From the IMG/VR virus record IMGVR_UViG_3300042691_044533, positions 1 through 21,987 of that record: 21,987 nucleotides of DNA, one strand, 5' to 3'. Of the stretch, positions 1 through 19,944 are shown in pieces; the first letter of the stretch is position 1, and every line of letters begins with the position of its first letter. This DNA is from a virus. The translations under genes and the position numbers were made by a program. The notes under the pieces were generated by a model. That model did not search any database. It saw only the letters and a list, made by a program, of their open reading frames with translations, and had not been told where the DNA came from.

Positions 1-17
1 TGTGCATCATCCTGAAA

Positions 18-45
18 ACCATTTTGGTGACGTCAACAAAATGGT
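18..45. repeat. 28-bp near-perfect palindrome
   Basis: Arms ACCATTTTG (18-26) and CAAAATGGT (37-45) are exact reverse complements, and the core TGACGTCA (28-35) is itself a perfect 8-bp palindrome. Only the pair 27/36 (G/A) breaks the 28-bp symmetry. It could be a dyad operator for a dimeric DNA-binding protein. Alternatively, read on the minus strand, it is an AT-rich hairpin followed by a short T run that ends transcription of the minus block. The sequence alone does not decide. Confidence 0.7.
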
Positions 46-163
46 CTACGTATAGGAGCTAAGCATAGGAGGTGTTGTTAATAGATGGATGCAGTGTAAC
101 TGGCGTACCGACAATCGGGCTGTGAGTTAACCAGGCGTATCCAGACAGTGACTGCACCTCTAT

Positions 164-207
164 CTTGGGCTCTCCTTCTAGGCTATCTGCCTAGCGAGTC
201 ACCCAAG
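164..207. other. Interrupted hairpin in the 3' region of the minus block
   Basis: CTTGGG (164-169) pairs with CCCAAG (202-207). An inner perfect stem CTAGGC (178-183) / GCCTAG (189-194) closes a 5-nt loop, and CTC/GAG can pair between them. No T tract follows on either strand, so it is not a standard intrinsic terminator. It lies 44 bp past the stop codon at 251, where a 3' stabilising structure or a separate small RNA is possible. Confidence 0.45.
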
Positions 208-250
208 CCCCATCGAAAAGAGAGGGGGAACTCAATTATTATACCTAACT

Positions 251-916
251 TTAGTAATTAAAACGTGGATCTCTGACGCCATATTTTTCGGCTAAACGCT
301 TGGCTGCTAGTGGGCCAGCACGATTAATTGTCAAAGCAATCCGGCGAATGTCATCGGCACTCGTGCCAGTATTCTCCAGGTGCTCAAGATCTTTCATGCC
401 AAACACATTGGGGTTATCACCCTTAGATGCAAAACTCTTGGTGTAGAAATCGCGAATAGCTTCAGGTGTTTTGAATCCTTGCGATGCACTTTGGGCTTGT
501 TTGAGGCTTTCTTGAACAGCTGCAGAACGATCGGTGGGTATACCAATCTGGAAACGCTCTTGTGCTGCTTGTAAAGCACTTTGGTTTAAGTTGCGTGCTC
601 GTGCAATATCTGCTGCGTCACTGCCATATTTCTGAACATCTGCAGGAGTTGCACCTGCTTGGTTATAAATATTCTGAACGGCTGAGCTTGTAGCTCTTTG
701 GATAAGCTGCTCTCTTCGCCACATATCGCCTGCATTAGAACCATACTTTTCCAAGTACTCTGCAGGAATACCAGCAGTAGCACGATTGTATTCACGCTCA
801 GCTCTGCGTTCTTCTCGGCCAGGGCGACGCTGCTCACGATACGCACGAAGTTTTTCCTTGCTACCTTTTAAACGTTCTAGAACATTTCGGTAAGAACCTA
901 AAAACTGTTTAGACAT
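251..916 (-). CDS. Phage protein of unknown function, 221 aa
   Basis: I do not recognise this family. It is a 221-aa hydrophilic protein with a very basic N-terminal third (Arg/Lys/Glu-rich, about residues 15-45, probably helical). A repeated motif follows: EKYGSNAGDMWRR near residue 57 and QKYGSDAADIARAR near residue 94. The C terminus is Ala/Arg-rich. There is no signal peptide or membrane segment. It is the last gene of the minus block, 27 bp after the 944-1612 gene. ATG at 916 follows an AT-rich stretch with no clear Shine-Dalgarno sequence. The composition would fit an internal virion or DNA-associated protein, but that is inference from composition only. Confidence 0.75.
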   Translation of the reverse strand: MSKQFLGSYRNVLERLKGSKEKLRAYREQRRPGREERRAEREYNRATAGIPAEYLEKYGSNAGDMWRREQLIQRATSSAVQNIYNQAGATPADVQKYGSDAADIARARNLNQSALQAAQERFQIGIPTDRSAAVQESLKQAQSASQGFKTPEAIRDFYTKSFASKGDNPNVFGMKDLEHLENTGTSADDIRRIALTINRAGPLAAKRLAEKYGVRDPRFNY

Positions 917-943
917 GTTTACTTATATTTTTATACATTCTAC

Positions 944-1612
944 CTAACCTTCATTTGGAGTCTTCCAAAAGTAATCGTCACACTCACCAAGGCGACCCCA
1001 TTTGGGGGCATGTTCAACATCGAAGTATCTAGTTGATACCTTAAAGTCTGGTGTCTTTAAGTCATGGTTGGTGAGTGATGGATCAACCATTCGACAACGA
1101 TTGTTGGGATAAGCGCCAATTTGACCGTTGTCCAAAGCCACAATGTTGTGGGACTTATGCTCGTCAGGAAATTCCGCAAAGTAAAAATCCGGTTCATTTC
1201 TATGTGGATGATAGTTGTCAACCGTAAATAAATATGTGCCCTTTATTACACCTGCACTACGCGTCATTACTTGAAACTCCATGTTGAAGATCAAGTTTTT
1301 TTCAACGACTGTAAGCCCGTGGTCAAACCCATTCCAAAACTGAAGGTCAGTTAGTCCCAGGTCGGGAGTGGGGGCTTGAGGTTTGTCAGGGTAATCTGGA
1401 TCCCATGCAAGGAATGCACTGATGGGAAGCTTGTCATAAAGAGCGCCGTACTCAGTAAGGTACGTTTCAAAATATAAAGCTCGTCCTGTTAAAGATTTAC
1501 ATGTAACCCAGTAGCCAGGTGTATATTCACCATGGCCATCTTTTAAGTCACGTAAGTATTCACGCCGCACCCAAACCTTGACGGGTGGAACATTAGCTAC
1601 AAGAGTAGTCAC
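944..1612 (-). CDS. Conserved cyanophage-type protein of unknown function, 222 aa
   Basis: A 222-aa soluble protein rich in aromatic residues, with the stretches GYWVTCKSLTGRALYFETYL and EYGALYDKLPISAF. From memory these resemble a conserved hypothetical family of cyanophages that also carries the 'PDEHKSHN..LDNGQ' and 'NNR..MVDPSLT' blocks seen here; no function is known to me. GTG at 1612 is the only plausible start, because the frame is closed by a TGA shortly upstream and contains no ATG before GTG. That GTG directly follows a hairpin and T6 tract (1613-1640). The only strong Shine-Dalgarno sequence is upstream of the hairpin, so initiation is unusual here. Confidence 0.8.
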   Translation of the reverse strand: MTTLVANVPPVKVWVRREYLRDLKDGHGEYTPGYWVTCKSLTGRALYFETYLTEYGALYDKLPISAFLAWDPDYPDKPQAPTPDLGLTDLQFWNGFDHGLTVVEKNLIFNMEFQVMTRSAGVIKGTYLFTVDNYHPHRNEPDFYFAEFPDEHKSHNIVALDNGQIGAYPNNRCRMVDPSLTNHDLKTPDFKVSTRYFDVEHAPKWGRLGECDDYFWKTPNEG

Positions 1613-1640
1613 AAAAAATCCCGGCGTATCATACCGGGAT
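1613..1640 (-). terminator. Terminator-like hairpin abutting a start codon
   Basis: On the minus strand ATCCCGG (1640-1634) pairs perfectly with CCGGGAT (1624-1618) across a 9-nt loop and runs into six T residues (1618-1613). This has the shape of an intrinsic terminator. Its T tract touches the GTG start of the 944-1612 gene. It may terminate the upstream small-gene operon, act as an attenuator, or be a structural spacer that brings the Shine-Dalgarno sequence at 1646-1655 close to GTG. Confidence 0.75.
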
Positions 1641-1655
1641 CATAGCTTCCTTCCT
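1629..1655 (-). promoter_or_regulatory. Strong Shine-Dalgarno sequence with a four-codon leader ORF
   Basis: On the minus strand AGGAAGGAAG (1655-1646) is one of the best ribosome-binding sequences in the window. It precedes ATG (1643-1641), which opens the tiny frame Met-Ile-Pro-Val-stop (1643-1629). This frame covers the 5' arm and part of the loop of the terminator-like hairpin. If translated, a ribosome would block the hairpin. If the hairpin folds instead, the Shine-Dalgarno sequence is only about 12 unpaired bases from the GTG at 1612. Both readings are inference. Confidence 0.5.
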
Positions 1656-1656
1656 C

Positions 1657-1729
1657 GCTCTTTCGAGCCCTACGTTCGTAACGTGGAAAGGGTTTTCGAC
1701 TATTACCCTTAGAGCGGAATTGCTCCGCT
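1657..1729 (-). ncRNA. Candidate structured RNA or 5' leader: four consecutive hairpins
   Basis: Reading the minus strand 5' to 3' there are four local hairpins in about 75 nt: AGCGGA/TCCGCT with a 5-nt loop (1729-1713), AAGGGT/ACCCTT with an 11-nt loop (1710-1688), ACGTT/AACGT with a 3-nt loop (1684-1672), and GCTC/GAGC with a GAAA tetraloop (1668-1657). They are followed by the Shine-Dalgarno sequence and the terminator-like hairpin. No protein frame explains the segment. It does not fit a tRNA cloverleaf or the hammerhead core. It may be the leader of the 944-1612 gene or a separate small RNA. Confidence 0.4.
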
Positions 1730-1752
1730 GTCAGGATATCACAACACGAGCG

Positions 1753-1902
1753 TTACTTTTTCTTTTTGGCTGCTGCTTCTTTTTTCTTGGCAATCATTTC
1801 TTTAAACTTATCACGCGCTTCGGTCTGCTTAGCAGATGCACCACCTTTCCCCTTAGGGGGCACAGCACCTTTCTTGGGAGGTACGGGTTTCTTTTTTTCC
1901 AT
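1753..1902 (-). CDS. 49-aa lysine-rich protein
   Basis: A short frame starting at ATG 1902 (MEKKKPVPPKKGAVPPKGKG...) and ending ...EAAAKKKK-stop. About 20 of the 49 residues are lysine. The N-terminal half is Pro/Gly/Lys-rich and probably disordered; the C-terminal half (from about residue 25) could form a basic helix. It follows the 1936-2145 gene by 33 bp, in a run of small basic proteins on the same strand. The charge suggests nucleic-acid binding or packaging with DNA, as inference. No clear Shine-Dalgarno sequence is visible. The hairpin-rich segment 1613-1735 begins just after its stop. Confidence 0.6.
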   Translation of the reverse strand: MEKKKPVPPKKGAVPPKGKGGASAKQTEARDKFKEMIAKKKEAAAKKKK

Positions 1903-1935
1903 GGCAAAAAGGAATCTTTGTTAAGTATAAAGGGA

Positions 1936-2145
1936 CTACTTATCCCTGTAGCGTTTTGCTACACGGGCAGCACGCCCTGCTTTCTTTGCGGTCTCCGTGT
2001 TAGGTACAAACTGTTTGCCTTTGCGACTACCAGCCCTTTTCTTTTGGTCAGTCTCTTGACGTTCTTCTTTGGACAGCGATGCCCATGCAGACTCTGGCAG
2101 GTAACGCTTGGTATATCCCTTTTGTATAGCCTTGTCACTTGACAT
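1936..2145 (-). CDS. Small basic protein resembling the C-terminal part of DUF5872-like proteins, 69 aa
   Basis: The 69-aa product contains KRYLPESAWASLSKEERQET and KKRAGSRKGKQFVPNTETAK. From memory this matches the C-terminal section ('RYLP..AW..LS..E...TD.KKR..S..GKQFVPNT') of DUF5872-like proteins of bacteria and large viruses. The matching N-terminal section is encoded separately at 2377-2658. The protein is very basic and has no membrane segment. It starts 4 bp after the stop of the 2150-2377 gene, so translation is probably coupled. Function unknown; DNA binding is a guess from charge. Confidence 0.75.
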   Translation of the reverse strand: MSSDKAIQKGYTKRYLPESAWASLSKEERQETDQKKRAGSRKGKQFVPNTETAKKAGRAARVAKRYRDK

Positions 2146-2149
2146 TGCT

Positions 2150-2377
2150 TTAACCCAATGTTCCTATGGTTGCATTCATAATTGATTGTTTTACACTGGG
2201 TGAGTATTTGCTGTTCTGTAAATCAGATAGTTTAAAGGGATACTGAAAATCTAATGCTGCATTTTTAAGCTCAGGATCACGAGCTTGTGCGGCCAACGCT
2301 TGCATCACACGCTGATCGGGAAATACATCTGGGGTATATCCCGTTTTTGCATTTGCGTATTTACCTGCTAGTTGCAT
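2150..2377 (-). CDS. Unknown 75-aa phage protein
   Basis: No family recognised. The product (MQLAGKYANAKTGYTPDVFP...) is a small soluble protein with an Ala-rich middle and a polar C terminus ending NATIGTLG. I chose ATG at 2377 because it shares one base with the TGA stop of the upstream 2377-2658 gene (TGATG), a typical coupled start; a GTG three bases earlier would add one residue. It is inserted between the two genes that look like the halves of a DUF5872-like protein. Confidence 0.65.
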   Translation of the reverse strand: MQLAGKYANAKTGYTPDVFPDQRVMQALAAQARDPELKNAALDFQYPFKLSDLQNSKYSPSVKQSIMNATIGTLG

Positions 2378-2658
2378 CACTTACTGTCCTGATATTTCTT
2401 GGCAGCAGCTTTGGCTTTATTACGTTTTTCATATTCGTCTTTTGTCATCCACTTTTCTTTGCCCCATTTCTCTAGAGACTTCTGTTTCTCACCCTTGCCG
2501 CCACGATAACCGCCGCCTGCTTTCTCGTATTCTTGTGTGACAAGCTGAGCCTTACGTGCAGACCACTGCCCAGGCTTACCTCCTTTGGAGCCTGCCATTA
2601 CACGATCTTTGATGCGTTCACGCATCTCAGGTTTTGTATATTTATTTTCCTGAGACAT
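2377..2658 (-). CDS. Small basic protein resembling the N-terminal part of DUF5872-like proteins, 93 aa
   Basis: The 93-aa product has the order KYTKPEMRERIKDRVMAGSK, then GGKPGQWSARKAQLV, then YEKAGGGYRGGKGEKQKSLE and KWGKEKW. I recall this as the signature of the DUF5872-like family (KYT.PELRERIK..I.AGSKGGKPGQWSARKAQL...YE..GGGY.G....QKSL..W..E.W). It is strongly basic with a Lys/Ala-rich tail. The ATG at 2658 lies inside the end of the 2642-2812 frame (17-bp overlap). The C-terminal section of the family is encoded at 1936-2145. Family call moderate; function unknown. Confidence 0.75.
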   Translation of the reverse strand: MSQENKYTKPEMRERIKDRVMAGSKGGKPGQWSARKAQLVTQEYEKAGGGYRGGKGEKQKSLEKWGKEKWMTKDEYEKRNKAKAAAKKYQDSK

Positions 2659-2812
2659 CAGGATTATTTTTTCTTTCTTCTATTATTTTAGCCCACTTAC
2701 ATGGTTTGGCATTCAGCTCCCAGTCCTTTGGTGGATTGGGAAACATAACACGTAATTGATAAAAGTATTTTGCGAGGCGTTCAGCCTCGGTAGGGATTCT
2801 GCTTCTCTTCAT
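2642..2812 (-). CDS. Unknown 56-aa protein overlapping both neighbours
   Basis: This short frame starts at ATG 2812 inside the end of the 2781-2993 gene and ends inside the start of the 2377-2658 gene. The product reads MKRSRIPTEAERLAKYFYQL..., then MFPNPPKDWELNAKPCKWAK and a basic/acidic tail. Trp, Pro and Tyr content and an amphipathic first helix make it look like a real protein, and without it about 120 bp would be empty in a tightly packed operon. No family recognised. A short DNA-binding or adaptor role is possible but unsupported. Confidence 0.55.
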   Translation of the reverse strand: MKRSRIPTEAERLAKYFYQLRVMFPNPPKDWELNAKPCKWAKIIEERKNNPDVSGK

Positions 2813-2993
2813 CCTTGCTTATAAACTGCGACATGAGATCGTCTACCTGTTCCAGGGACTCAAGGCGGCAGAGAATATCCGAGATTGTTGAGATAGTAAT
2901 CGGATGTTCTGCACGTGCCGCAAAGGCTAATGCATCGCGCATATTGTTGGCAGCATCGTTAATTGCAGCCTTAACTTGAGCAGAGAGAGCCAT
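2781..2993 (-). CDS. Unknown helical protein, 70 aa
   Basis: The product MALSAQVKAAINDAANNMRD... is probably almost all helical (ALAFAARAEHPITISTISDI, then LCRLESLEQVDDLMSQF), with a charged C-terminal tail. The frame extends upstream to a TTG at 3035, but ATG 2993 is the better start because the protein pattern begins there. An AAGGA sequence lies 17 bases upstream, which is long for a ribosome site. From memory such small helical proteins occur in cyanophages; function unknown. Its end overlaps the 2642-2812 frame by 32 bp. Confidence 0.65.
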   Translation of the reverse strand: MALSAQVKAAINDAANNMRDALAFAARAEHPITISTISDILCRLESLEQVDDLMSQFISKDEEKQNPYRG

Positions 2994-3090
2994 TTCGGAC
3001 GGGCGCGGTTTCCTTACTATAGTAAACATGTGCAATTAAACGTCTATATCTATTGTGTTATACAGGTACTAGTAATGCAAGTACGGATAA

Positions 3091-3678
3091 CTACAACCAG
3101 ATCCAGCCAATTTGGTATTGATCAAACCAAGGTTCAATGCCAATTGATTCCATCAGCTCATAGATAAGGCGTCCCTTGCCGTAGCGTTGACCATTTGGAG
3201 TCTTGATGTTGTCGTCTACTACAATCAGAGTGTTGTTGCGCAGGAATTCTTTGGCGCAAAACAACTCTTTAAGGTGATGGGCGGCAGGAGCCCAGTCGTT
3301 TCGCCAGTCAGTAATGTTGTACGAATCTAGGTACAGCACAGCAAGATCTTCAAATGCACCGAATGTCTCAAGAAATTCGACGGAGTCTGCTTCGTAGACC
3401 TCCGCATGTTTTGTACTGGAAAGAGCAAGTTCGCAGGCTGCGGGATCAATGTCTACCGATACCAAGCGTCCGGTCTTCTTGATGTCAATGTAGTTATCGA
3501 ATAAAAGAGTCGAGCAACCATCACCTGTGTAGTTGTTTTCTTCTCGATATGTCCCTGTTTCAATGATCAACGGATCTTCAAACTCATCTAGGTGCTCAAA
3601 GATCTTTTCAAATGTTGCTGCACGGGCGCCAAGAGAAGGCTTGACAGTTGCAAAGTAATCTTCCCAGGTGCGTGCCAT
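3091..3678 (-). CDS. Class I SAM-dependent methyltransferase-like protein (Methyltransf_24 type), 195 aa
   Basis: Probable Rossmann-fold enzyme. Residues 38-45 (IIETGTYR) form the first strand and the glycine-containing SAM loop. SVDIDP (74-79) is the acidic end of strand 2 that would bind the SAM ribose. YLDSYN (116-121) and LIVVDDN (151-157) are strands 4 and 5, with acidic residues that in related enzymes can bind metal or substrate. The size suits small phage or sugar/peptide O-methyltransferases; the substrate is unknown. ATG 3678 is chosen because it lies one base after the TAG stop of the upstream gene and has AAGGA 12 bases upstream. A TTG start at 3705 is the alternative. Confidence 0.7.
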   Translation of the reverse strand: MARTWEDYFATVKPSLGARAATFEKIFEHLDEFEDPLIIETGTYREENNYTGDGCSTLLFDNYIDIKKTGRLVSVDIDPAACELALSSTKHAEVYEADSVEFLETFGAFEDLAVLYLDSYNITDWRNDWAPAAHHLKELFCAKEFLRNNTLIVVDDNIKTPNGQRYGKGRLIYELMESIGIEPWFDQYQIGWIWL

Positions 3679-3679
3679 G

Positions 3680-3841
3680 CTAGAAATCAATCCTTGTGTA
3701 TGCAATCTCTTGAGATTTTAAATCATTTTCATACTGTTCTGCTTCAATTGTTTCTACATCAATGAAAGAAAGTCCTTCGAGGCAGCCTGTGCGGCAGTCT
3801 TCGTCGAACTCAAAATAAAATCTCGTTAAGTTTGATGTCAT
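3680..3841 (-). CDS. Unknown acidic 53-aa protein
   Basis: The product MTSNLTRFYFEFDEDCRTGC... is small, acidic and soluble, with two nearby cysteines (16 and 20) and a Glu/Gln-rich helix around residues 29-45. The frame is open further upstream, but that part is antisense-like and overlaps the HLIP gene, so ATG 3841 (32-bp overlap with the HLIP end) is preferred. Its stop is one base from the start of the methyltransferase-like gene, so the two are probably translated together. No family recognised. Confidence 0.6.
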   Translation of the reverse strand: MTSNLTRFYFEFDEDCRTGCLEGLSFIDVETIEAEQYENDLKSQEIAYTRIDF

Positions 3842-4052
3842 GAGTTGCGCACCAAATAAAGATGAAGGTAAGGGTAAGCATGGCAATGCGACCGTTGACG
3901 CGCTCGGCATACCAAATGTGATCGTCAAGGTTTGTGTGTCGTTTCCAAAACTTAAGGTCGGGTGCTTCTTCCCAGATGAATTTTAGGAGGGCTGCTGGAA
4001 CCCAGGAAACACACGACCAATAACCTTGGATGCCAAGCCAGAACTTGTTCAT
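3810..4052 (-). CDS. hli: High-light-inducible protein (HLIP), chlorophyll-binding
   Basis: The C-terminal half carries the HLIP/LHC motif: AERVNGRIAM at residues 49-58 (E50, N53, G54, R55, A57, M58), leading into one transmembrane helix to about residue 68. In this family the Glu/Asn/Arg cluster binds chlorophyll and the helix sits in the thylakoid, protecting photosystem assembly and repair under stress. Cyanophage hli genes are thought to maintain photosynthesis during infection. The N-terminal 27 residues (WLGIQGYWSCVSWVPAALLK) are also hydrophobic, which is unusual for a single-helix HLIP. The gene is coupled by an ATGA overlap to the 40-aa membrane protein upstream. Confidence 0.8.
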   Translation of the reverse strand: MNKFWLGIQGYWSCVSWVPAALLKFIWEEAPDLKFWKRHTNLDDHIWYAERVNGRIAMLTLTFIFIWCATHDIKLNEILF

Positions 4053-4171
4053 TGCCGTGAAAGGACTTCTGTAAAGAAGAGGTAGGCATCCATGCTAATC
4101 ACGACAAGCATTGCGCCAAGGATCGAGGCAATTGCGTAGTTGAATCCTTCCATACCAATTTGTTGATTCAT
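4049..4171 (-). CDS. 40-aa single-helix membrane protein coupled to hli
   Basis: The frame reads MNQQIGMEGFNYAIASILGA and continues through a hydrophobic segment (about residues 10-33, containing AMLVVISMDAYLFF) to a short charged end, TEVLSRQ. It is the first gene of the minus-strand block. Its TGA overlaps the HLIP start (ATGA), so the two are probably translated as a pair. One short helix next to an HLIP recalls the small single-helix subunits of photosystems and cytochrome b6f, but I cannot match it to a named subunit. The role is open; an HLIP partner is the natural guess. Confidence 0.6.
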   Translation of the reverse strand: MNQQIGMEGFNYAIASILGAMLVVISMDAYLFFTEVLSRQ

Positions 4172-4204
4172 CTGTTAAGCTAGCAGCAATATACAAAACC
4201 GTCG
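4172..4204. promoter_or_regulatory. Divergent intergenic region
   Basis: Only 33 bp separate the start of the minus-strand hli pair (4171) from the plus-strand nuclease (4205). On the minus strand TATATT within TTTTGTATATTG is a possible -10 element for the hli block. On the plus strand TATACA is a weak candidate. No good -35 or Shine-Dalgarno sequence is seen for either start, so the promoters may lie partly inside the coding regions. Confidence 0.35.
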
Positions 4205-5059
4205 ATGGTTGCTAAAATAAATACATCTGATCCTTGGATTAAGGCCAAGGACGAGCAACCAGAAGTTATGCGGTCACTCAATAAGACCGCAGCCAGAATT
4301 ACGCTTAACGGTAAAAGGCACTATACAACACCGTTACCCACTGGACCTGCGCCGTCTGTAACTACTATCATTGGTGAGACAGCTTCCGAAGCAAACAAAC
4401 GGAAGCTCGAAATGTGGTCTAAAAACAACCCAGGTGTTAAAGAGGCCGCTGCTGAAAGAGGTACCGCCATCCACTATGGAATGGAATGCTACCTCAAGGG
4501 GAACAAAAATCCAGACATACCAGAGGATTACCAAGATTTTTGGGCTGGTATGCCGGCAATTCTTGATCAGTTTCAGGAAGTTCTCTGGGCTGAATCTCCC
4601 GTGCTGGACAAATTTAATTTTACTATTGGTGCTGATGACGTGGCTCGCGTCTGGGGTTGCGATCCCGAGGGCCGTGCTTGGGCTGGCGCTCCTGACATTA
4701 TTGCTGTTGCCAATAACAAATTAACGCTTGCTGACCTAAAGACCAGCGTCAAACCCTATAGTCGCAAGTGGCCTAAAGACTTGGAAAAGGGCTCCCAGGA
4801 GTGGAGGGATCTGCTCGGCGGTCACATGAAATTCAAAAAGACCTGCAAGCAGTTGGCAGCCTATGACATCGCCATCGAGCAAACCCTGGGTATGAGAGTT
4901 CAGCAGGCAGCAATCTTGGTATCGACTCCCATTCGCACTCAGGTATTCAAAATCTCACGCAGGTTTTTGGATTCTTTGCGCGATGACTGGTACAAGATTG
5001 TAGAGGAGTACTACACCCAGATTGAGAACTGTAACGTCTATGATCCCGACCTTATTTAA
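4205..5059 (+). CDS. PD-(D/E)XK nuclease, phage exonuclease type, 284 aa
   Basis: A nuclease of the PD-(D/E)XK superfamily (RecB/Cas4/lambda-exonuclease-like). Visible motifs in order: ERGTAIH (84-90), the helix that contributes an acidic or His residue; AGAPDII (160-166) with catalytic Asp163; LADLKTS (175-181) with the D-x-K pair Asp177/Lys179; and QLAAYDIA (216-223), the conserved Gln-x3-Tyr motif. Likely role: metal-dependent degradation or processing of DNA ends in phage recombination or host DNA turnover. No helicase domain is fused. ATG 4205 has no clear Shine-Dalgarno sequence. The next gene starts within its last codons. Confidence 0.85.
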   Translation: MVAKINTSDPWIKAKDEQPEVMRSLNKTAARITLNGKRHYTTPLPTGPAPSVTTIIGETASEANKRKLEMWSKNNPGVKEAAAERGTAIHYGMECYLKGNKNPDIPEDYQDFWAGMPAILDQFQEVLWAESPVLDKFNFTIGADDVARVWGCDPEGRAWAGAPDIIAVANNKLTLADLKTSVKPYSRKWPKDLEKGSQEWRDLLGGHMKFKKTCKQLAAYDIAIEQTLGMRVQQAAILVSTPIRTQVFKISRRFLDSLRDDWYKIVEEYYTQIENCNVYDPDLI

Positions 5060-5351
5060 CGACATTATTAAAGCCATCGTTAAGTGGTGGAAGCAGGTTT
5101 GGTTTGAAGCCAGGCTTAAGGCGCGGCTCACCATGATCGAATGGGAGAATCAAATTGAGGCTGAGCTTGAACGTGAGAAACAAAATAAACCAATCTATAT
5201 TGAACATGAAATAGATACTCAACTCCAGACTGGTGAGTCCAGGGAACTGGGCGGAGCCATGGAGCTACGTGCACCTTGGTACAATGACCCCATACAACCC
5301 CAACGGCAAGATGGAGTGCAGGAAGCGCCTAGCGTGGACGATCGCCTGTGA
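5040..5351 (+). CDS. Unknown protein with amphipathic N-terminal helix, 103 aa
   Basis: The product begins MIPTLFNDIIKAIVKWWKQV, followed by a charged, probably coiled helix (to about residue 50) and a Pro/Gln-rich, likely disordered C-terminal half. The first 20 residues are hydrophobic and Trp-rich and could attach to a membrane. ATG 5040 lies inside the end of the nuclease gene (20-bp overlap), the most natural coupled start; a frame-internal ATG at 5022 is the alternative. No family recognised. It sits between the nuclease and the primase-helicase. Confidence 0.55.
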   Translation: MIPTLFNDIIKAIVKWWKQVWFEARLKARLTMIEWENQIEAELEREKQNKPIYIEHEIDTQLQTGESRELGGAMELRAPWYNDPIQPQRQDGVQEAPSVDDRL

Positions 5352-5469
5352 GCAAGCTGTCGTAACAAAAGAAGACGCAATTACGTTGTACAACAAAATC
5401 ATGAAAGATTTTGAAGCAACGGATAAGCGAAACAAATATAGAGAACGCGAGTCCAATAAGACTCAATGA
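5284..5469 (+). CDS. Unknown small protein, 61 aa
   Basis: The product MTPYNPNGKMECRKRLAWTI... continues into a helix (about residues 20-45, containing VVTKEDAITLYNKIMKDF) and a very charged C terminus. The pattern of a short loop followed by helices suits a small nucleic-acid-binding or adaptor protein, but I know no family. The frame can be extended to GTG 5233; ATG 5284 is chosen because the upstream part looks like the shifted reading of the previous gene. It overlaps the 5040-5351 gene by 68 bp. Confidence 0.55.
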   Translation: MTPYNPNGKMECRKRLAWTIACEQAVVTKEDAITLYNKIMKDFEATDKRNKYRERESNKTQ

Positions 5470-5483
5470 TTTTAATTTTGTCT

Positions 5484-5542
5484 TGAGGAGTGCAACAGGT
5501 TGGGCACCGTAGGATAAGAAGACAACTCAGCCTCCCTCCTCA
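5484..5542 (+). promoter_or_regulatory. Possible RNA stem at the 5542 start codon
   Basis: TGAGGAG (5484-5490) is the exact reverse complement of CTCCTCA (5536-5542), whose last base is the A of the ATG at 5542. In RNA a 7-bp stem would pair a Shine-Dalgarno-like sequence with bases adjoining the start codon. The pyrimidine run just before the ATG (CCTCCCTCCTC) resembles the anti-Shine-Dalgarno sequence of 16S rRNA. No ordinary ribosome site precedes this start. Confidence 0.35.
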
Positions 5543-5730
5543 TGGACATTACTGTCGGCATGGGTGAGTGGATGAATAGTCTCATGAGTCGCATGACAAA
5601 TGCGGCGGATGGGGACTGTTTTTATCTACCCACGCTAATGCACCTCCATGCTTACAACTTGCTAAAGGAGAGCTGTTTCCCTGATAAAAACTTTAAAGTA
5701 ACCGTAGAAACCCCCGTTGCAAACAAATGA
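5542..5730 (+). CDS. Unknown small protein coupled to primase-helicase, 62 aa
   Basis: The product MDITVGMGEWMNSLMSRMTN... then GDCFYLPTLMHLHAYNLLKE and a basic tail. It is compact, with a Cys at residue 26 and two close His residues, and has no membrane segment. Its TGA overlaps the ATG of the primase-helicase (ATGA), so it is translated just ahead of that enzyme and may act with it. The start could instead be ATG 5560. Function unknown. Confidence 0.6.
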   Translation: MDITVGMGEWMNSLMSRMTNAADGDCFYLPTLMHLHAYNLLKESCFPDKNFKVTVETPVANK

Positions 5731-8369
5731 CGCAGAAGCAATACGCTGTTAAACCAGGGGAAATTCGACTGGATCTCCTCCCTATTGATTGGCCCTTTAC
5801 TCCGCTCGGTGCACAGAAAGATCCTTATGTACTTGGTTGGCAAAAGCGGCCTTTCAGCGCTGATGAAATTGAAAAAGAACTTCTGTCAGGTAAGTGCAAA
5901 GCGGTTGGTCTCCATGGGGGTCCTGTCTTTAATCATCCCTACGGTTTGGTTTGGGTTGATGTGGATGGAGCAAGCATCTACAAGCTTGTGGAAGAAATCT
6001 CCGGTCTTCCGTTCAACGATGCACTTCCTCCAACGCTCACCATTCTGAGCGGTAAGCCTGGACGCGAACGCAAGCTATACCGCGTAGAAAAAAGAAAGCA
6101 CGACTCTTTTCTCCGTAATAAGTACGTCTGGCACAGCAAAGAAGTAGCCGACGAAAAACTTGAGATTCTTTGGACCCGGCACCAAGGGGTGTTAATGGGC
6201 TTGCATCCAGAGACCGATGGTTACTTCACCGCAGAAGAGCAGGGTTTTGAATGGATTGATCGTTTGCCGGAAATGCCGGCCTGGTTACTGCACGGTATCG
6301 TTAATAAAAACGTACAGCAGGGTAAACCTCCGCAGGAAATTACGCGGCGAGTAACAGCTGGCAGTGTTGTTCAATCAACAATTGGACAAGAACGGGAAAT
6401 TCAAAACGCAAAGGAAGCGGCTTGGGCATTACCTCCTGAAGTTGCAGACGACTACGATCTCTGGATCATTGTTGGTCAGACGCTTCATTCCGTTGATGAA
6501 TCCTTGCTAGACGAATGGGATGCCTGGTCTAGGCAATCGGAGAAGTATCAAGAAGGCGAATGCCATAGACGCTGGCTCTCCTTCACAAAGGGTGGTGGCC
6601 GCACGGCTGGGACTCTTTTCCACATGGCAAAGGAGAATGGTTGGTCTCCTTCTCAGGACTATCGTGCGTTTGGTGTTGATGATGAGACACTGGAGCATGT
6701 TTCACAACTGGTTGAACAAATTGACGAGGATTTAAAACAAATGGCATCTGTTCCAGCGGTGGTTGAGAAAGATAAAGCTGAGGCTTGGAGTAATACGCAC
6801 CAAATGCTGGCGCAGAAAACAAGCAAGAAAAAAGAAGAGAAGGAAGATAAGCGGCTTTCATCGGATGTCATTGCGGATCGTGTGTTCGACATGTATACAG
6901 GCAATCTCCGGTACAGTCAACCTCATGGTCAGTTCTTCTTATATGACCAGCGGAAGGGATTATGGGAACCTTTAACCAAGGTTGAGATGCTCGGGAGCTT
7001 GCGCGAAAAGCTCAAAACCCTTGTCACCGTAGAAAACGAAAAGTTCAAAGGGTTCAGCACGAACCTTATGAATGACATCTATTCGCAACTGCAATCGATT
7101 ATTCCTTTTGATGAATGGTACGACGGCTCCAGGTATCTGCTATTCACTAATGGAGTCTTGGATGTTGAGACTAAAGATCTGATGGAGTTCCAGCGGGATC
7201 TTTACCTCACGCAGCAGATGCCCTACGACTACGATCCTGCCGCCACATGTGAAGAAATTATTAAATGGCTGAAGCATACGCAGCATGACAGCTACCAGCG
7301 GGCACAAGTTCTGCGTGCCTGGCTCAGGGCAACACTGCTGGGGCGCCATGAAATTCAGAAGTTTGTTGAAATCGTGGGACCTGGTAAGTCCGGTAAGTCC
7401 ACCTACGCAAACCTTGCTGTTGCATTGGTTGGTAAGCAAAACACCTACTCAACAGACTTTGAAAACCTGGAGAAGAACCGGTTTGAGGCCGCAAGTTACA
7501 TGGGTAAAAAGCTGTTGCTGTTCCAGGATGTTGATCGATGGGGTGGTTCTGTCTCCAAGCTAAAAGCAATCACGGGTGGTGACTGGATTCGCTCGGAACG
7601 TAAGTATCAAACGGAAAGTCAAGATCCATTCCAGTACCACGGGATGGTCATGATTACAGCTAACGAAGCCATTCAATCCACTGATTACACATCTGGTCTT
7701 GCTCGTCGCCGCTTGACCATTCCTTTCGACCGTCCGTTTGCCGGTGGCCAAGCAGAACAAAAAGAACTAATCAAATTTGACAACAAAGGTAATCCGCAAG
7801 GTGTTTTTGCTCCGCTCCTCGCTGGTCTTGTCAACTGGTTGCTGGATATGACAGAGGAGGACATGCGTTCCTATCTCATGGAAACTGGTAAGAATGTCTC
7901 GTTCTTCCAGCGGTATGAGAAGACGCAAAGCCTGCGCTCTAATCCGCTACTGGACTGGATGGACCATAAGGTCGTCTTTGATCCAAACGTTAGTTCTCCT
8001 GTTGGGTTCTGCAAAGTGCAGCCTGGTGGTAGCTCCGGTTACTACGACAACTGGGACAAATGGCTCTATGCAAGCTATGCAGAATTCTGCCGTAGCTGCA
8101 ACGTTGGCATCATGTCGCGTGGTCGTTTTGAGCCCTTGTTCCTAGACATCTGCCGTCACCAGTTGAAGATCAATGTCTACGGCGTCAAGAACAGCAAAGG
8201 ACTACGCATCGTAAATGCTGTTGTCCGCGATTCAAATAAAACGCAGTACGAAAGCTATCCTTCCATTGTTGAGGTTGCGGCTAACCCCGAAAAGTACAGC
8301 GAATTCTATGGGGCCTCCTTATCAACAACTACCGATGAGATAATGGATGAAAATGCAATAGACATGTGA
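5727..8369 (+). CDS. Bifunctional Prim-Pol primase / SF3 helicase, 880 aa
   Basis: Replication enzyme with three parts. Residues about 15-190 are an archaeo-eukaryotic primase (Prim-Pol) domain: VWVDVDG with the metal-binding DVD (78-80), and SGKPGRERKLYRV (108-120). About 225-300 is a PriCT-2-like linker (WALPPEVADDYDLWIIVGQT). About 375-690 is a D5/VirE-type SF3 helicase: Walker A GPGKSGKST (551-559), Walker B LLLFQDVD (596-603), motif C VMITANE (641-647), and an arginine-finger region GLARRRLTIPF (657-667). A C-terminal domain follows. It should unwind DNA and make primers at the fork. The length is usual for phage and plasmid fusions of this kind. Coupled to its neighbours at both ends by 4-bp overlaps. 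Confidence 0.92.
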   Translation: MTQKQYAVKPGEIRLDLLPIDWPFTPLGAQKDPYVLGWQKRPFSADEIEKELLSGKCKAVGLHGGPVFNHPYGLVWVDVDGASIYKLVEEISGLPFNDALPPTLTILSGKPGRERKLYRVEKRKHDSFLRNKYVWHSKEVADEKLEILWTRHQGVLMGLHPETDGYFTAEEQGFEWIDRLPEMPAWLLHGIVNKNVQQGKPPQEITRRVTAGSVVQSTIGQEREIQNAKEAAWALPPEVADDYDLWIIVGQTLHSVDESLLDEWDAWSRQSEKYQEGECHRRWLSFTKGGGRTAGTLFHMAKENGWSPSQDYRAFGVDDETLEHVSQLVEQIDEDLKQMASVPAVVEKDKAEAWSNTHQMLAQKTSKKKEEKEDKRLSSDVIADRVFDMYTGNLRYSQPHGQFFLYDQRKGLWEPLTKVEMLGSLREKLKTLVTVENEKFKGFSTNLMNDIYSQLQSIIPFDEWYDGSRYLLFTNGVLDVETKDLMEFQRDLYLTQQMPYDYDPAATCEEIIKWLKHTQHDSYQRAQVLRAWLRATLLGRHEIQKFVEIVGPGKSGKSTYANLAVALVGKQNTYSTDFENLEKNRFEAASYMGKKLLLFQDVDRWGGSVSKLKAITGGDWIRSERKYQTESQDPFQYHGMVMITANEAIQSTDYTSGLARRRLTIPFDRPFAGGQAEQKELIKFDNKGNPQGVFAPLLAGLVNWLLDMTEEDMRSYLMETGKNVSFFQRYEKTQSLRSNPLLDWMDHKVVFDPNVSSPVGFCKVQPGGSSGYYDNWDKWLYASYAEFCRSCNVGIMSRGRFEPLFLDICRHQLKINVYGVKNSKGLRIVNAVVRDSNKTQYESYPSIVEVAANPEKYSEFYGASLSTTTDEIMDENAIDM

Positions 8370-8725
8370 GCAACGGACGCCATCTCATCTTGGATCTCTA
8401 TGACTGTGATCCAGGGATCCTTGATGATTACGAGGAGCTTCAACGATTGTTAGAGGCTTCTCTTGTGATGGCGAAAGCTACGATCTTGCGCATCATCGGT
8501 GAAAAATTCAAGCCGCAAGGCGTGACATTGCTGGCACTACTCGCTGAATCGCATGCGTCGATTCATACCTGGCCTGAGATTGGGTATTGTGCAATCGATC
8601 TCTATACATGTGGGGATACAACACAAACACACAGAGCTGCAGAATTTCTTAAAAAGAAATTGAAAGCTAAAACGGCGGAGGAAAGAGAGCTGACACGTTC
8701 AATAACTCCTTTAGTTTCGGTATAG
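8366..8725 (+). CDS. speD: S-adenosylmethionine decarboxylase proenzyme, SpeD class 1b, 119 aa
   Basis: A pyruvoyl enzyme that decarboxylates S-adenosylmethionine to give the aminopropyl donor for spermidine synthesis. The hallmark LAESHASIHTWPE (59-71) holds the self-cleavage site Glu61-Ser62, with Ser62 becoming the pyruvoyl group and His67 assisting. Cys82 in YTCGDT is the expected proton donor. The length matches bacterial class 1b enzymes (about 120 aa). It starts with GTG at 8366, overlapping the helicase stop by 4 bp, so it is probably co-translated. Auxiliary metabolic gene known in cyanophages. Some SpeD homologues act on ornithine or arginine instead, so the substrate is not certain. 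Confidence 0.92.
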   Translation: MSNGRHLILDLYDCDPGILDDYEELQRLLEASLVMAKATILRIIGEKFKPQGVTLLALLAESHASIHTWPEIGYCAIDLYTCGDTTQTHRAAEFLKKKLKAKTAEERELTRSITPLVSV

Positions 8726-8729
8726 TTAA
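8711..8729 (+). promoter_or_regulatory. Candidate promoter motif, copy 1
   Basis: TTAGTTTCGGTATAGTTAA overlaps the speD stop codon and ends 21 bp before the glycosyltransferase ATG. It matches 16 of 19 positions with the sequence at 20529-20547, which lies in the same place relative to the dCTP deaminase gene. The TATAGT/TATACT part suits a -10 element, with a conserved TTTCGG in front in place of a standard -35. A shared translation element is less likely, because a separate Shine-Dalgarno-like sequence follows each copy. Confidence 0.5.
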
Positions 8730-8750
8730 TCGGAAGGTACCCAATTATCC

Positions 8751-10043
8751 ATGAGTAAAAAGACAAAGATTTTGTGGTGTGGTGACATTGTCGCCATGAC
8801 TGGCTTCGCACGCGTCACTGAAAACGTCATCTATCGCCTGAAGGATGATTTTGAGATTGTTGTCCTCGGCCACAACTGGTGGGGTGATCCGTGCGATCAA
8901 CAGAAAGATTTCAAGATGTATCCGTCGTCCAACCGGTTCCAGACGGCGCCTTTTGGTGAGCAGCGCATTCGAGAGATCGTAGAGAAAGAAGAGCCGGATA
9001 TCGTTTTCTCAATTAACGATATGTGGATTATTAATGAGCAATACCGGCAAATTGAAGACCTGCACAAAGCAGGTAAGTTCAAGTTCGTTGGTTATGCGCC
9101 AATGGATTCGTATGGGTGGATTGGTTGCCTAGCCGATACCGCCAACAATTGGGACTCCATCATTTCCTATACGGAATTTGGTGCACGCGAATTTGTGAAA
9201 GGTGGCATCAATAAGCCGATTGCCGTCATCCCCCACGGTGTTACACCTGGTCAGTTCTATCCCAAGGACAAAGCGGAATGTCGTCGCAAGCTGGGTCTTG
9301 ATGAAGACCTTTTCATCGTGTTCAACGGAAACAGGAATCAGTTCCGTAAACGGATTGACATCACCATCAAGGCATTTGCTGAGTTTGCTATCGGACGCCC
9401 TGATACCCGCCTGTACCTCCACATGGGCATGAAGGACCAGGGCTGGGATGTGATGAGCCTCTTCGGTAGGGAAATGTCAAGAGTGGGCCTGGATCCCAAC
9501 GGGCGCATCATCATGACGGCACAGACGGAAGGGCCACCAAACGTATCTGTGGACATGCTCAACACCATCTATAACGCCTGTGATGTGGGCATCAATACCT
9601 GCAAAGGTGAGGGCTGGGGTCTTGTCAACTTTGAACACGCTGCATGTGGTGTGCCCCAGGTGGTGCCTGACCATACATCATGTAAGGAGATCTTCGAGGG
9701 CTATGGGGAGCTGATCCGTTACGACCACGTTGATGTGGATACCAATTACGGACGTGAGATGCCTTGCCCCTCCTCCGAACACCTGGTAGAGATCCTAGAC
9801 CAACTGTACGAGGTTCCTGAGATCTGCGACGAGATTGGTGAGAAGTGCTACCAGCGGGCTACTGATCCTCAATTCTCATGGGATACAGTTGCGTCTCAGT
9901 TTGGTGGCATCTTTGAGGATGTGATGAACCAGGTGGATCACTCAGTCCAACCTGAGATCAATGTTGGGATTGGCGAGAAACCAAAAGCACGTAAGAAGAA
10001 AGGTAAACCGATGCGTCGTGAGCTGGCAAGTGCCGTAAAGTAA
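8751..10043 (+). CDS. GT-B family 4 glycosyltransferase, 430 aa
   Basis: Transfers a sugar from a nucleotide-sugar donor to an unknown acceptor. The N-terminal Rossmann half starts KILWCGDIVAMTGFARV (residues 6-22). The C-terminal half holds NGNRNQFRKRID (192-203), typical of the donor phosphate-binding strand, and GEGWGLVNFEHAACGVP (286-302) with the E-x7-E motif Glu287/Glu295 of GT4 enzymes. The last 20 residues are Lys/Arg-rich. It could modify phage DNA, virion or host surface; nothing here decides. GGAAGG lies 14 bases before the ATG and a candidate promoter lies at 8711-8729. The gene ends at a strong terminator. Confidence 0.88.
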   Translation: MSKKTKILWCGDIVAMTGFARVTENVIYRLKDDFEIVVLGHNWWGDPCDQQKDFKMYPSSNRFQTAPFGEQRIREIVEKEEPDIVFSINDMWIINEQYRQIEDLHKAGKFKFVGYAPMDSYGWIGCLADTANNWDSIISYTEFGAREFVKGGINKPIAVIPHGVTPGQFYPKDKAECRRKLGLDEDLFIVFNGNRNQFRKRIDITIKAFAEFAIGRPDTRLYLHMGMKDQGWDVMSLFGREMSRVGLDPNGRIIMTAQTEGPPNVSVDMLNTIYNACDVGINTCKGEGWGLVNFEHAACGVPQVVPDHTSCKEIFEGYGELIRYDHVDVDTNYGREMPCPSSEHLVEILDQLYEVPEICDEIGEKCYQRATDPQFSWDTVASQFGGIFEDVMNQVDHSVQPEINVGIGEKPKARKKKGKPMRRELASAVK

Positions 10044-10066
10044 GCGGGCGACAAATGGGTGACCGG

Positions 10067-10094
10067 GCCTCTGCTGAAAAGCAGGGGCTTTTTT
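10067..10094 (+). terminator. Intrinsic terminator
   Basis: GCCTCTGCT (10067-10075) pairs along all nine positions (one G-T wobble) with AGCAGGGGC (10080-10088), closing a GAAA tetraloop, and six T residues follow (10089-10094). This is a textbook Rho-independent terminator, 23 bp after the glycosyltransferase stop. It ends the plus-strand replication/metabolism block. Confidence 0.92.
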
Positions 10095-10186
10095 GTTGCG
10101 TACTGATACAGAACTAGGGGGCAACGGTCGGACTTTGGGCGGACTTTCCGACTTTGGGGGTATTTCTATCTTTAATCACACGAGAG

Positions 10187-10218
10187 CCCATACACTTTGG
10201 GGGGTTAAAGTGTATGGG
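10187..10218. repeat. Palindromic unit 1 (12-bp stem, G6TT loop)
   Basis: CCCATACACTTT (10187-10198) pairs perfectly with AAAGTGTATGGG (10207-10218) around the loop GGGGGGTT (10199-10206). There is no T tract after it, so it is not a standard terminator. It is near-identical to the reverse complement of unit 2 at 10259-10290. Confidence 0.85.
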
Positions 10219-10258
10219 TAGTAGGATCACGTTCTCAGCTTGGTCTCACGGTAAGAAA

Positions 10259-10290
10259 CCCTTACACTTTGACCCCCCGAAATGTAAGGG
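10259..10290. repeat. Palindromic unit 2 (8+3-bp stem, C6 loop)
   Basis: CCCTTACA (10259-10266) pairs with TGTAAGGG (10283-10290). After an unpaired C, TTT (10268-10270) pairs with AAA (10280-10282), leaving the loop GACCCCCCG (10271-10279). The six C residues are complementary to the six G residues in the loop of unit 1, and neighbouring bases extend the match to eight (one wobble). Confidence 0.82.
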
Positions 10291-10364
10291 AAGTTTTTAG
10301 AATAAAGGTGAAACCGGGGGTAAAGTCGGAAAGTCCACCCATCCACTCCAGCTCATTTCAATTC

Positions 10365-11081
10365 ATGGCAAACATCCCCAAAAAGATCGCCTCCCTGGTA
10401 AAGGAGCACGACTCTTTCCGCTACGTACCAAATGCCGAGCGGCTTAGTACTGATGAACTAACGGCAAACGGGCTTTACAAGGGCTATCCCTGCCCCCATG
10501 GACACGACATTCGCCTGCTTGACAATCACTCCTGTTATCTGTGCGCCGGCAAAATTCGTGACAACATCTGTGGTTTTGACTTGAACTACATGCAGGAGGA
10601 GTACAAACGCAAGTACGCGGATCTGTGGAGCCAGATTGCCGTTGGTGATCCCAGTGAGTGCTGGGAGGCGCCGGGGTTGACGCAAAAACGCATCTGCCTA
10701 CCCTCCTACCGGTCGCTGTACGCCAGGGACAAGTCGACCAACGTCACCGCCCACAAGGCGATCTACCAATGCGCTTGGGGGGATGTGGGTGCGTTGTTCG
10801 TGACGAGAGTATGTGGGAACAAAACGTGTCTCAACCCTCTCCACCTTGTCTCAAACTGGAACCGCTTATTTCCTCCCAGTGTGATCAGCCCTTTTGATTA
10901 TGCTTTCCAACCCGAGAAGTTGATGCAGTATCAACAAGTACAAGATGCAAACCAGCTCAAAGTATTACGCGAGCGTTATTACAAGTGCACCATCCAGAAC
11001 CCTTTAGTTAACCAAAACAACTCCGATTATGATAGTGAATATATACAGTATTACCAATCCGAATGGCAAGAAACCAGTTGA
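10365..11081 (+). CDS. HNH-like zinc-finger protein with substituted catalytic His, 238 aa
   Basis: The N-terminal finger is CPHGH (43-47) paired with Cys57 and Cys60 (SCYLC), likely one zinc site. The C-terminal region matches HNH_3-like endonucleases: CW at 99-100, AHKAIY (129-134), then CGNKTCLNPLHLV (150-162) with Cys150/Cys155 and the N-P-x-H end of the HNH motif. The position where the family has its first catalytic His (V-x-H-x-C) is Arg148 here, so nuclease activity may be lost or altered. ATG 10365 is chosen; the open frame further up runs into the palindromic element. It may be a homing-type or packaging-associated nuclease, or a DNA-binding protein derived from one. Confidence 0.7.
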   Translation: MANIPKKIASLVKEHDSFRYVPNAERLSTDELTANGLYKGYPCPHGHDIRLLDNHSCYLCAGKIRDNICGFDLNYMQEEYKRKYADLWSQIAVGDPSECWEAPGLTQKRICLPSYRSLYARDKSTNVTAHKAIYQCAWGDVGALFVTRVCGNKTCLNPLHLVSNWNRLFPPSVISPFDYAFQPEKLMQYQQVQDANQLKVLRERYYKCTIQNPLVNQNNSDYDSEYIQYYQSEWQETS

Positions 11082-11971
11082 GTCAACCTCAACGGACCCA
11101 GGCAAACCCCCTGGTTCTTGGTACCTTTTCGGAAACAGCTATTCGCAACCTGCGTGGTTCTTTGGGACCCAAGAATCGTGTTATTGGCTATGCAGACACT
11201 TTCCAAAACTCCAATGGTGGTTTTGGTGGCGGTACTTACAACCACTGGTTCCAAATTAATATCGAAGCTCCGGCATGGATCATCCTTGTAAAAGGTCCTC
11301 CAAGGCCCAATTATATCCAGGTGTCTGCTTATAGTCTTGACCAAACACCAATCGAAGGCAAAGGAATATTTGACGCCGATTCTGTAACAACGACAACAAA
11401 TGGACAGGTGTACGTACCGTATTTAGATACGGTAATGAGTGCACAATCTAATTTATACAACCAGTTCTCCTCTCTTCGCCTTGACAGGGGAGATGAGCGT
11501 TATTACCCCCTGGAAAAAGGCAGCTATCTTATTTGCGTTTCGTTGACGCGCAACGAACCAATTAATTACAACGTCTCTGTTGTCATTGAATTCCAGGAGA
11601 CAATTGCGTTCTTTGAATTAGAAGACGAAGACGGAAGTGTTGCTCTACAAGAGTCAACTCCGTTTACTGAAAACATTGTCTCTCCAATTACATCTAACAC
11701 AACAATTGTTGACGAATCGTATGCTTTTACAGATGAAAACTGTACCATCAATAATGGTGTTGTCGTAACAATTGAAGAGCTTGGTATTTGGTATATCGGC
11801 ACTGCTCCACAAAATGAACAAAACAAAATTATATTGGAGCCAGGGGATGATGCTTATTTCGACACAATACATGATCATTCGCTTTCCGCTTGGAAGCAAG
11901 CATGGGAGAATGAACACCATGAGGATGATTCATTCCCCAGCATCCTTGTTCCGCTGACAAACAGACCATGA
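11063..11971 (+). CDS. Probable virion structural protein, unknown family, 302 aa
   Basis: A 302-aa acidic protein rich in beta-type residues, Asn, Thr and Gly (for example NSNGGFGGGTYNHWFQINIE), with no signal peptide or membrane helix. The middle section (GSYLICVSLTRNEPINYNVS) and an Asn/Thr-rich region resemble beta-sandwich tail or decoration proteins. That is inference from composition; no family was recognised. It starts 19 bp inside the end of the HNH-like gene and ends with an ATGA overlap into the 38-aa gene. The C terminus is His/Asp/Glu-rich. Confidence 0.65.
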   Translation: MARNQLSQPQRTQANPLVLGTFSETAIRNLRGSLGPKNRVIGYADTFQNSNGGFGGGTYNHWFQINIEAPAWIILVKGPPRPNYIQVSAYSLDQTPIEGKGIFDADSVTTTTNGQVYVPYLDTVMSAQSNLYNQFSSLRLDRGDERYYPLEKGSYLICVSLTRNEPINYNVSVVIEFQETIAFFELEDEDGSVALQESTPFTENIVSPITSNTTIVDESYAFTDENCTINNGVVVTIEELGIWYIGTAPQNEQNKIILEPGDDAYFDTIHDHSLSAWKQAWENEHHEDDSFPSILVPLTNRP

Positions 11972-12084
11972 TCAAACGTTTACTGGCCTGGTTTAAAGGG
12001 AAAAGCAAAACAATAGAACATCCTTGGCATCTCTATTGCAAAGAGAATCCACACTCGTTGGGCTGTCGTGTTTATGACATCTAA
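11968..12084 (+). CDS. Unknown 38-aa protein
   Basis: The frame MIKRLLAWFKGKSKTIEHPW... ends with HLYCKENPHSLGCRVYDI. It has a basic amphipathic N-terminal helix and two Cys residues spaced ten apart in a C-terminal loop. The start overlaps the upstream stop (ATGA), so translation is coupled. No family recognised; the amphipathic start could touch a membrane, which would suit its place next to lysis genes. Confidence 0.5.
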   Translation: MIKRLLAWFKGKSKTIEHPWHLYCKENPHSLGCRVYDI

Positions 12085-12114
12085 AAGATAGAATGAGGGA
12101 AATGGAATATAACC

Positions 12115-12279
12115 ATGGACAAACTTAACCAGTACCTGGAAATAGCTTTAGCTATTCACGCCGCTTGCTCAGCCATTACGGCGTTAACTCCTACGCCAAA
12201 AGACGACAAACTTGTCGGCAAACTCTACAAACTGATCGAGATCGGTGGTCTTGTTATTGGCCGCGCCAAACAACGTTGA
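12115..12279 (+). CDS. Small protein, candidate lysis accessory (holin-like neighbour), 54 aa
   Basis: The product MDKLNQYLEIALAIHAACSA continues ITALTPTPKDDKLVGKLYKL and ends GRAKQR. From memory this pattern (a helix ending in 'ALTPTPKDD..VGKLYKLIE') is widespread among tailed phages as a small protein next to endolysins. It is sometimes listed as a putative holin or as a conserved protein of unknown role. The first helix (about residues 8-24) is only moderately hydrophobic, so a true membrane pore is not certain. The gene ends base to base with the minus-strand gene at 12280 and no terminator is seen between them. Confidence 0.6.
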   Translation: MDKLNQYLEIALAIHAACSAITALTPTPKDDKLVGKLYKLIEIGGLVIGRAKQR

Positions 12280-12441
12280 TTAATCGGGAAGAGCTTGAAA
12301 CCAAAAGCAAACTCCTCCTTGTTTTTCAACCCACTCTCTTGTTGCGTACGCTTCTGCTTTCGGAAGTGTTACGCACTTTTTTTCTCTGCCAACTTCCCAG
12401 CAGATATTTACGCGTATATAGGGCTCTTTGTATTTTTTCAC
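12280..12441 (-). CDS. Unknown 53-aa protein, last gene of the lysis/tail block
   Basis: The product begins (GTG) MKKYKEPYIRVNICWEVGRE, then KKCVTLPKAEAYATREWVEK and ends GGVCFWFQALPD. It is basic and compact, with three Cys residues, and looks like a single small alpha/beta domain. GTG 12441 is chosen because it lies one base after the endolysin stop. An upstream ATG at 12510 would overlap the endolysin by 68 bp. No family recognised. It meets the plus-strand 12115-12279 gene with stops abutting. Confidence 0.6.
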   Translation of the reverse strand: MKKYKEPYIRVNICWEVGREKKCVTLPKAEAYATREWVEKQGGVCFWFQALPD

Positions 12442-12442
12442 G

Positions 12443-13456: not shown

Positions 13457-13497
13457 ATCGACCCGAGTCTTTTGTCAACTCTAGGTCAGGTCAATAA

Positions 13498-13668: not shown

Positions 13669-13690
13669 AATACAAAGACAAAAATCTATT

Positions 13691-19942: not shown

Positions 19943-19944
19943 AA

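Follow-up and report, generated by a model that had tools for sequence, protein, structure and literature searches.

R1, a conserved candidate non-coding RNA of freshwater cyanophages whose probable terminator abuts the start of a downstream gene

Introduction

The tRNA cluster of phage T4 contains stable RNAs of unknown function among its tRNAs. Short structured RNAs occur in cyanophage genomes as well, and include CfrI, PhotoRC-II, wcaG, manA, glnA and abiF (available text of PMC9964418 and, in part, PMC2864571). In T4, stem-loops also shorten the distance between a Shine-Dalgarno (SD) sequence and the start codon, from 27 to 11 bases for gene 25 and from 22 to 5 bases for gene 38 (as given in the available portion of PMC3014915).

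The stretch of DNA analysed here, which we call the window, is an IMG/VR virus record of 21,987 bases; among named phages, its closest relative is S-EIV1, a Synechococcus phage from fresh water. A first-pass annotation of its minus strand had proposed that a hairpin placed between an SD sequence and the GTG start of a gene, here gene A, delivers the ribosome site to that start, and that the same hairpin can act as a terminator or attenuator. Here we compare this junction across related loci, and find that the hairpin belongs to a larger conserved unit, R1, for which it probably serves as the terminator.

Results

The hairpin in front of gene A

The junction lies where the first-pass annotation had placed it (1655-1646 for the SD-like sequence, then the hairpin, T6 and the GTG at 1612), and its minus-strand order is AGGAAGGAAG, CTAT, GATCCCGGTATGATACGCCGGGATT, TTTT and GTGACTACT (Table 1). 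The T6 was described correctly, but the stem, which had been counted as 7 bp, has 9 pairs, 7 of them core and 5 of them G-C, around a loop of 7 and ahead of the T tail, with a stem folding energy of -13.5 kcal/mol. Folding does bring the SD-like run near the start, to 10 bases (counted from AAGGA, 1652-1648) instead of 35 in the linear sequence, and not to the ~12 bases estimated earlier.

Table 1. Features of the RNA region and its neighbours in the window
Feature	Position	Strand	Description
Start of R2 RNA block, cut by window end	1..231	minus	hairpin GTTCCCCCTCTCTTTTCGATGGGGC after TATAAT, modules M1, M2
Gene A	944..1612	minus	222 aa, GTG directly after T run; phrog_3704 ('ferredoxin', moron)
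Intrinsic terminator	1613..1641	minus	9-bp stem 1641-1617 + T run 1618-1613
R1 structured non-coding RNA	1613..1733	minus	predicted transcript ~1726-1613, ~114 nt
TATGAT, -10-like hexamer abutting terminator stem	1639..1644	minus	candidate nested gene A promoter
SD-like purine run AGGAAGGAAG	1646..1655	minus	AGGA core in 77/80 elements, window included
Helix P2 + loop	1688..1710	minus	AAGGG/CCCTT around AATAGTCG; coordinates counted from alignment
Extended -10-like promoter TGATATCCT of R1	1733..1741	minus	TGnTAnnnT
Small lysine-rich ORF upstream of R1	1753..1902	minus	49 aa

A single terminator-like site is weak evidence taken alone, since bases 1-20000 hold 31 of them, of which this hairpin is the second listed, compared with 20.0 (sd 4.6) in shuffled sequences. 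What lifts the hairpin above chance is its conservation, together with covariation at one pair. Indeed, in an alignment of 49 distinct R1 sequences (A1, the basis of our covariation tests), its 8 aligned pairs are paired in 98.5% of cells, and the two bases of pair 115/135 are found as U-A in 44 rows, as C-G in 3 and unpaired in 2, a compensatory support that is modest. The earlier suggestion of a terminator is thus well supported by the G-C-rich stem and T6, the conservation of the stem and the one compensatory change. Furthermore, among 547 other distinct starts of ORFs of at least 120 aa across the 80 gene-A loci, 8 have an equally strong stem ending within 8 nt, and in 4 of these cases the stem is the R1 terminator hairpin itself. 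In equilibrium folding, which is not a kinetic test, the stem is paired with a probability of at least 0.993 in 41 of the 41 elements that are followed by a gene, with no competitor of the terminator and no antiterminator pairing.

The GTG at 1612 is borne out as the start of gene A, the protein alignment beginning at this codon in 80 of 80 gene-A loci. The protein is 86.4% identical to its S-EIV1 homologue (the DNA of the window matches that of S-EIV1 at 76.3% over 662 bases) and gives a full-length profile match to phrog_3704 (residues 1-221, E 1.3e-96), with no match in Pfam. Records label the family variously as PurM, phosphoribosylaminoimidazole synthetase, ferredoxin or transcriptional regulator; since these labels differ between records and Pfam has no match, the names look unreliable. 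The R1-type hairpin is absent from 47 of the 80 gene-A loci, where the start codon is ATG in 43, GTG in 3 and TTG in 1, whereas GTG is used in 28 of the 33 loci with the hairpin, and the junction therefore affects the gene.

A different conserved leader, CTTCTAATTTGNTCCTAATTTGAAGTAAATTAGGAGTTCATTAGGA, precedes gene A in L002, L012, L016, L018, L024, L025 and L033 (diverged in L033), and contains repeats able to pair two ways and an SD-like AGGAG. The small ORF on the other side of R1 (Table 1) has no PHROG match. Elsewhere on the minus strand, an 824-aa ORF at 15503-17977 contains many near-repeats of type TARTINGVSFNGSTNITI and looks like a repetitive tail/fibre protein.

The hairpin ends a conserved structured unit

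Alignment of the upstream regions shows that the hairpin is the last part of the larger conserved unit R1 (~1741-1613), which consists of an extended -10-like promoter, predicted hairpins, the SD-like purine run and the intrinsic terminator. All 51 distinct elements, the window copy (L081) among them, have the motif TGnTAnnnT, compared with 1090 of 20000 random 52-nt stretches, and its middle bases vary among elements. Transcription from this motif would start at ~1726. A covariance model of R1, which the window row helped to build, matches the window at 1733-1613 with 123.3 bits (E 5.5e-27).

Covariation is clearest in helix P2, where all five pairs show changes on both sides across the 49 sequences and 97.9% of cells are paired, and the AATAGTCG loop that it carries is identical in 49 of 49 rows. 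P3 is mixed and weaker, with 83.6% of cells paired and no pair changed on both sides. For the whole tested structure, defined without the variable P4 hairpin, 74 cells are changed on both sides compared with 24.4 in shuffles (0 of 500 as high), and 94.6% of cells are paired compared with 28.7-51.0% when the partners are slid. An opposing measure is the number of further pair types, 16 in the alignment and thus below the 18.9 of the shuffles, all 500 of which were as high.

R1 occurs with and without a following gene

In order to follow R1 across IMG/VR, we used a pattern consisting of the AATAGTCG loop and the terminator only, which ignores the sequence of P2 and P3 and the downstream gene. 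It matched 80 contigs, 79 of which are real by eye (L284 is a chance match). Earlier pattern scans, yielding 69 and 84 stretches, contained many chance matches, dropped by eye or for lack of a terminator, and the model search took 90 of the 113 loci L082-L194, the other 23 being pattern matches that visual inspection had put down to chance.

Of the 79 contigs, 57 have an ORF that opens 0-4 bases past the T run. This ORF is gene A in 32 (always at 0 bases), gene B, a homologue of gene A likewise assigned to phrog_3704, in 22 (7 at 0 and 15 at 4 bases) and gene C, which is endonuclease VII-like (PF02945), in 3 (at 0 bases). In the other 22 contigs R1 is followed by R2-type RNA (11), tRNA-Thr (2) or other sequence (9), with no gene A, B or C. 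Because R1 occurs in these 22 copies without such an ORF, and gene A occurs in 47 of 80 loci without the hairpin, R1 is independent of the gene. In L031 (5601-6035), L032 and L034, gene C sits exactly between the T run of R1 and gene A; in L031, the one in which it was translated, its end overlaps the gene A start at 6001.

Of the 22 contigs without a following gene A, B or C, 19 retain the AGGA core of the SD-like run, and the 3 copies without it (L286, L293 and L294) are near-copies of one another. A tree of 80 elements (the 79 contigs and the window), computed from 98 columns of their 5' part, is weak, with 30 of 56 inner branches open; on it the ORF label changes 8 times, 3 of which the supported branches require, and the AGGA label once. 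Together, these observations indicate that the run is part of R1 and that its conservation needs no ribosome-site role; the comparison does not trace this conservation to a downstream start.

Searches elsewhere were negative. At the gathering threshold, Rfam has 0 matches in the whole window, and at relaxed settings the matches in 1560-1960 are far below the cut-off (anti-hemB 15.6 of 49.5, PsrR1 15 of 42). R1 was not found in S-EIV1 with the pattern over the whole record or with the model over an 8.7-kb piece, and gene A there directly follows the previous stop. The 149-base window stretch, used as a query in distant mode, has no match in the phage collection, and the 7 pattern matches in bacterial genome contigs are all chance by eye. 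We found no description of R1 in the available text of the open-licence literature.

The R2 block and its modules

A second RNA block, R2, lies on the same strand as gene A, after the gene at 251-916. Its first hairpin, GTTCCCCC...GGGGC, stands behind TATAAT and is followed by modules M1 (TAGGCAGATAGCCTAGAAGGAG) and M2 (GATAGAGG...CCATCTATT). Many related loci have gene A or B and then R2, with the first hairpin conserved and the modules shuffled together with tRNAs; further loci contain M3, M4 and M5 along with tRNAs (Pro, Thr, Leu), in differing combinations. The M2 stem covaries by eye, in four versions (gcaag/cttgc, tcagg/cctga, ccagg/cctgg and tgcag/ctgca) around quite different inner sequences. 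R2 matches no Rfam family at gathering or relaxed thresholds, the gathering-level matches being tRNAs in other loci only, and no tRNA was found in the window.

Discussion

We consider R1 likely to be a free-standing non-coding RNA of the phage, ~114 nt long, with the hairpin as its intrinsic terminator and gene A packed against that terminator. R1 would have its own extended -10-like promoter, helices P1-P3 and the variable P4, and the AGGA purine run, and would end at the T run. Comparison of sequences establishes the conservation and covariation of R1, its promoter-like motif, its terminator and its independence from the downstream gene; that R1 is transcribed alone and with these exact ends is what this arrangement would predict. 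R1 presumably acts in trans, the invariant AATAGTCG loop and the AGGA run being the likely contact sites. The hairpin would thus be mainly the stop signal of R1 and not a special ribosome-site device for gene A. Points against a free-standing RNA are the closeness of an ORF to the T run (0-4 bases) in 57 of 79 contigs, which a cis-acting leader would show as well, the mixed support for P3 and the low number of further pair types, the prevalence of GTG starts in gene A behind the hairpin, and four loci, described below, in which the 3' end of R1 is kept without its 5' part. Gene A itself may be expressed by read-through, from a weak promoter with TATGAT (1644-1639) beside the terminator stem, or both, and an mRNA from TATGAT would begin in the hairpin loop and hence lack both the hairpin and an SD.

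Such a promoter, nested in the terminator and able to coexist with the terminator role, is the alternative that survives best, and we regard it as tentative but with a real chance of being correct. It takes TATRAT before the stem as the -10 element of genes A, B and C, their mRNA starting in the hairpin loop (at ~1632 in the window, as predicted from the hexamer) with a U-rich leader of ~20 nt without an SD. Among the elements with an ORF, 54 of 57 have TATRAT, the remaining 3 having TAGGAT or TAAGAT, compared with 1 of the 22 without an ORF; the looser TAnnAT is present in 58 of 58 with an ORF, window included, compared with 5 of 22 without. This tracking of the ORF by the hexamer suggests a promoter at this site, although the ORF-group region is near-identical and shared descent may explain the hexamer, which also overlaps the stem and is thereby constrained for another reason. 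On supported branches, pairs that differ in the ORF agree with the hexamer in 2.9 of 3 cases on average, but three independent pairs are too few for a sign test to reach 0.05. In L019 (TATAAT) and L160 (TAGGAT), the ATG of a tiny ORF discussed below is lost and the -10 bases are kept. Where R2 follows the element, the T run often leads straight into a further TATAAT or TATGAT, and in the window TATGAT is also the -10 of a weak promoter-like match with TCGAAA. By eye, however, TATRAT has no TG extension and no conserved -35. If real, a nested promoter would explain how genes placed directly behind a terminator are expressed, and would bear on the acquisition of moron genes.

The split ribosome site of the first-pass annotation, which could likewise coexist with the terminator, would operate on read-through RNA, where the folded hairpin sets the purine run ~10 bases from the GTG and drives translation of gene A. 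The geometry of this proposal stands, and the change from 35 to 10 bases fits those of T4 genes 25 and 38. There is no other SD between the hairpin and the gene A start, the hairpin is predicted to form in all 41 elements followed by a gene, and no more than 4 bases separate the T run from the start of gene A, B or C. Furthermore, L076, which lacks the rest of R1, places an unrelated hairpin of -11.5 kcal/mol between its GGTAGGA and GTG (5951-6001), and this keeps the idea alive. The comparison across contigs speaks against it, as AGGA is retained in 19 of 22 contigs that lack such an ORF. In addition, the gene B start lies 4 bases further on in 15 of 22 contigs, giving a folded spacing of ~14 bases; the SD-like run and the start are moderately unpaired (median probabilities of 0.35 and 0.38 in the 41 elements followed by a gene); a terminator at this position would remove most read-through transcripts; and many relatives of gene A without R1 (for example in L031, L039 and L048) have no SD by eye. 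On these grounds we find a split site somewhat unlikely. A stem between the SD-like run and gene A codons, present in the fold of the window, was discarded, its paired codons not being kept in relatives by eye.

In L041, L043, L057 and L058, the last ~45 bases before gene A are kept, together with the purine run, the hexamer, the terminator and the start codon (ATG in L041 and GTG in the remaining three), despite a different 5' part of R1, and the 3' end of R1 is therefore tied to the gene in these phages. This pattern fits both a split ribosome site and a nested promoter.

R1 could instead be a cis-acting leader or attenuator, similar to a riboswitch, that senses something and accordingly ends transcription or lets it read through into the gene behind. 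In favour of such a leader are the ORF that adjoins the T run in 57 of 79 contigs, with differing genes in that position, and the order of aptamer and terminator. On the other hand, 22 of 79 copies have no such ORF, the genes behind R1 differ (phrog_3704 and endonuclease VII), equilibrium folding, which is not a kinetic test, gives no antiterminator pairing, and R1 has no riboswitch match in Rfam, making this reading unlikely. Finally, a tiny leader peptide MIPV (ATG ATC CCG GTA TGA) served by the purine run is rejected as very improbable: an ATG does lie a few bases past the run in most elements, but the ATG or the early stop is lost in L019 (ATA), L160 and L162, and L007 and L046 have no early stop.

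Returning to R1 as an RNA with its own terminator, it might stand at the head of a movable RNA region, followed by morons and the shuffled RNA/tRNA array, with the terminator doubling as a gene-acceptor site, a speculation that we would not favour at present. If it were true, the -10 beside the stem would let any gene placed after the U run start inside the hairpin, so that one short sequence would end one RNA and start the next.

With R1, a widespread family of freshwater (lake) cyanophages gains a structured RNA that is supported by covariation and unmatched in Rfam, and what began as a guess about translation becomes a testable question about an RNA gene. With its tRNAs mixed with other small RNAs, the R1/R2 region resembles the T4 tRNA cluster, and its R2 modules belong to no assigned family. 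R1 is comparable to CfrI, PhotoRC-II, wcaG, manA, glnA and abiF in being a short structured RNA in cyanophage genomes, and differs from them in having no Rfam family, in occurring in S-EIV1-like freshwater phages and in not being tied to one gene. The junction resembles those of T4 genes 25 and 38 in placing a stem-loop between an SD-like run and a start, at a folded spacing of ~10 bases; unlike in T4, the stem here is the probable terminator of an RNA that exists without the gene, and the SD-like run is independent of the gene.
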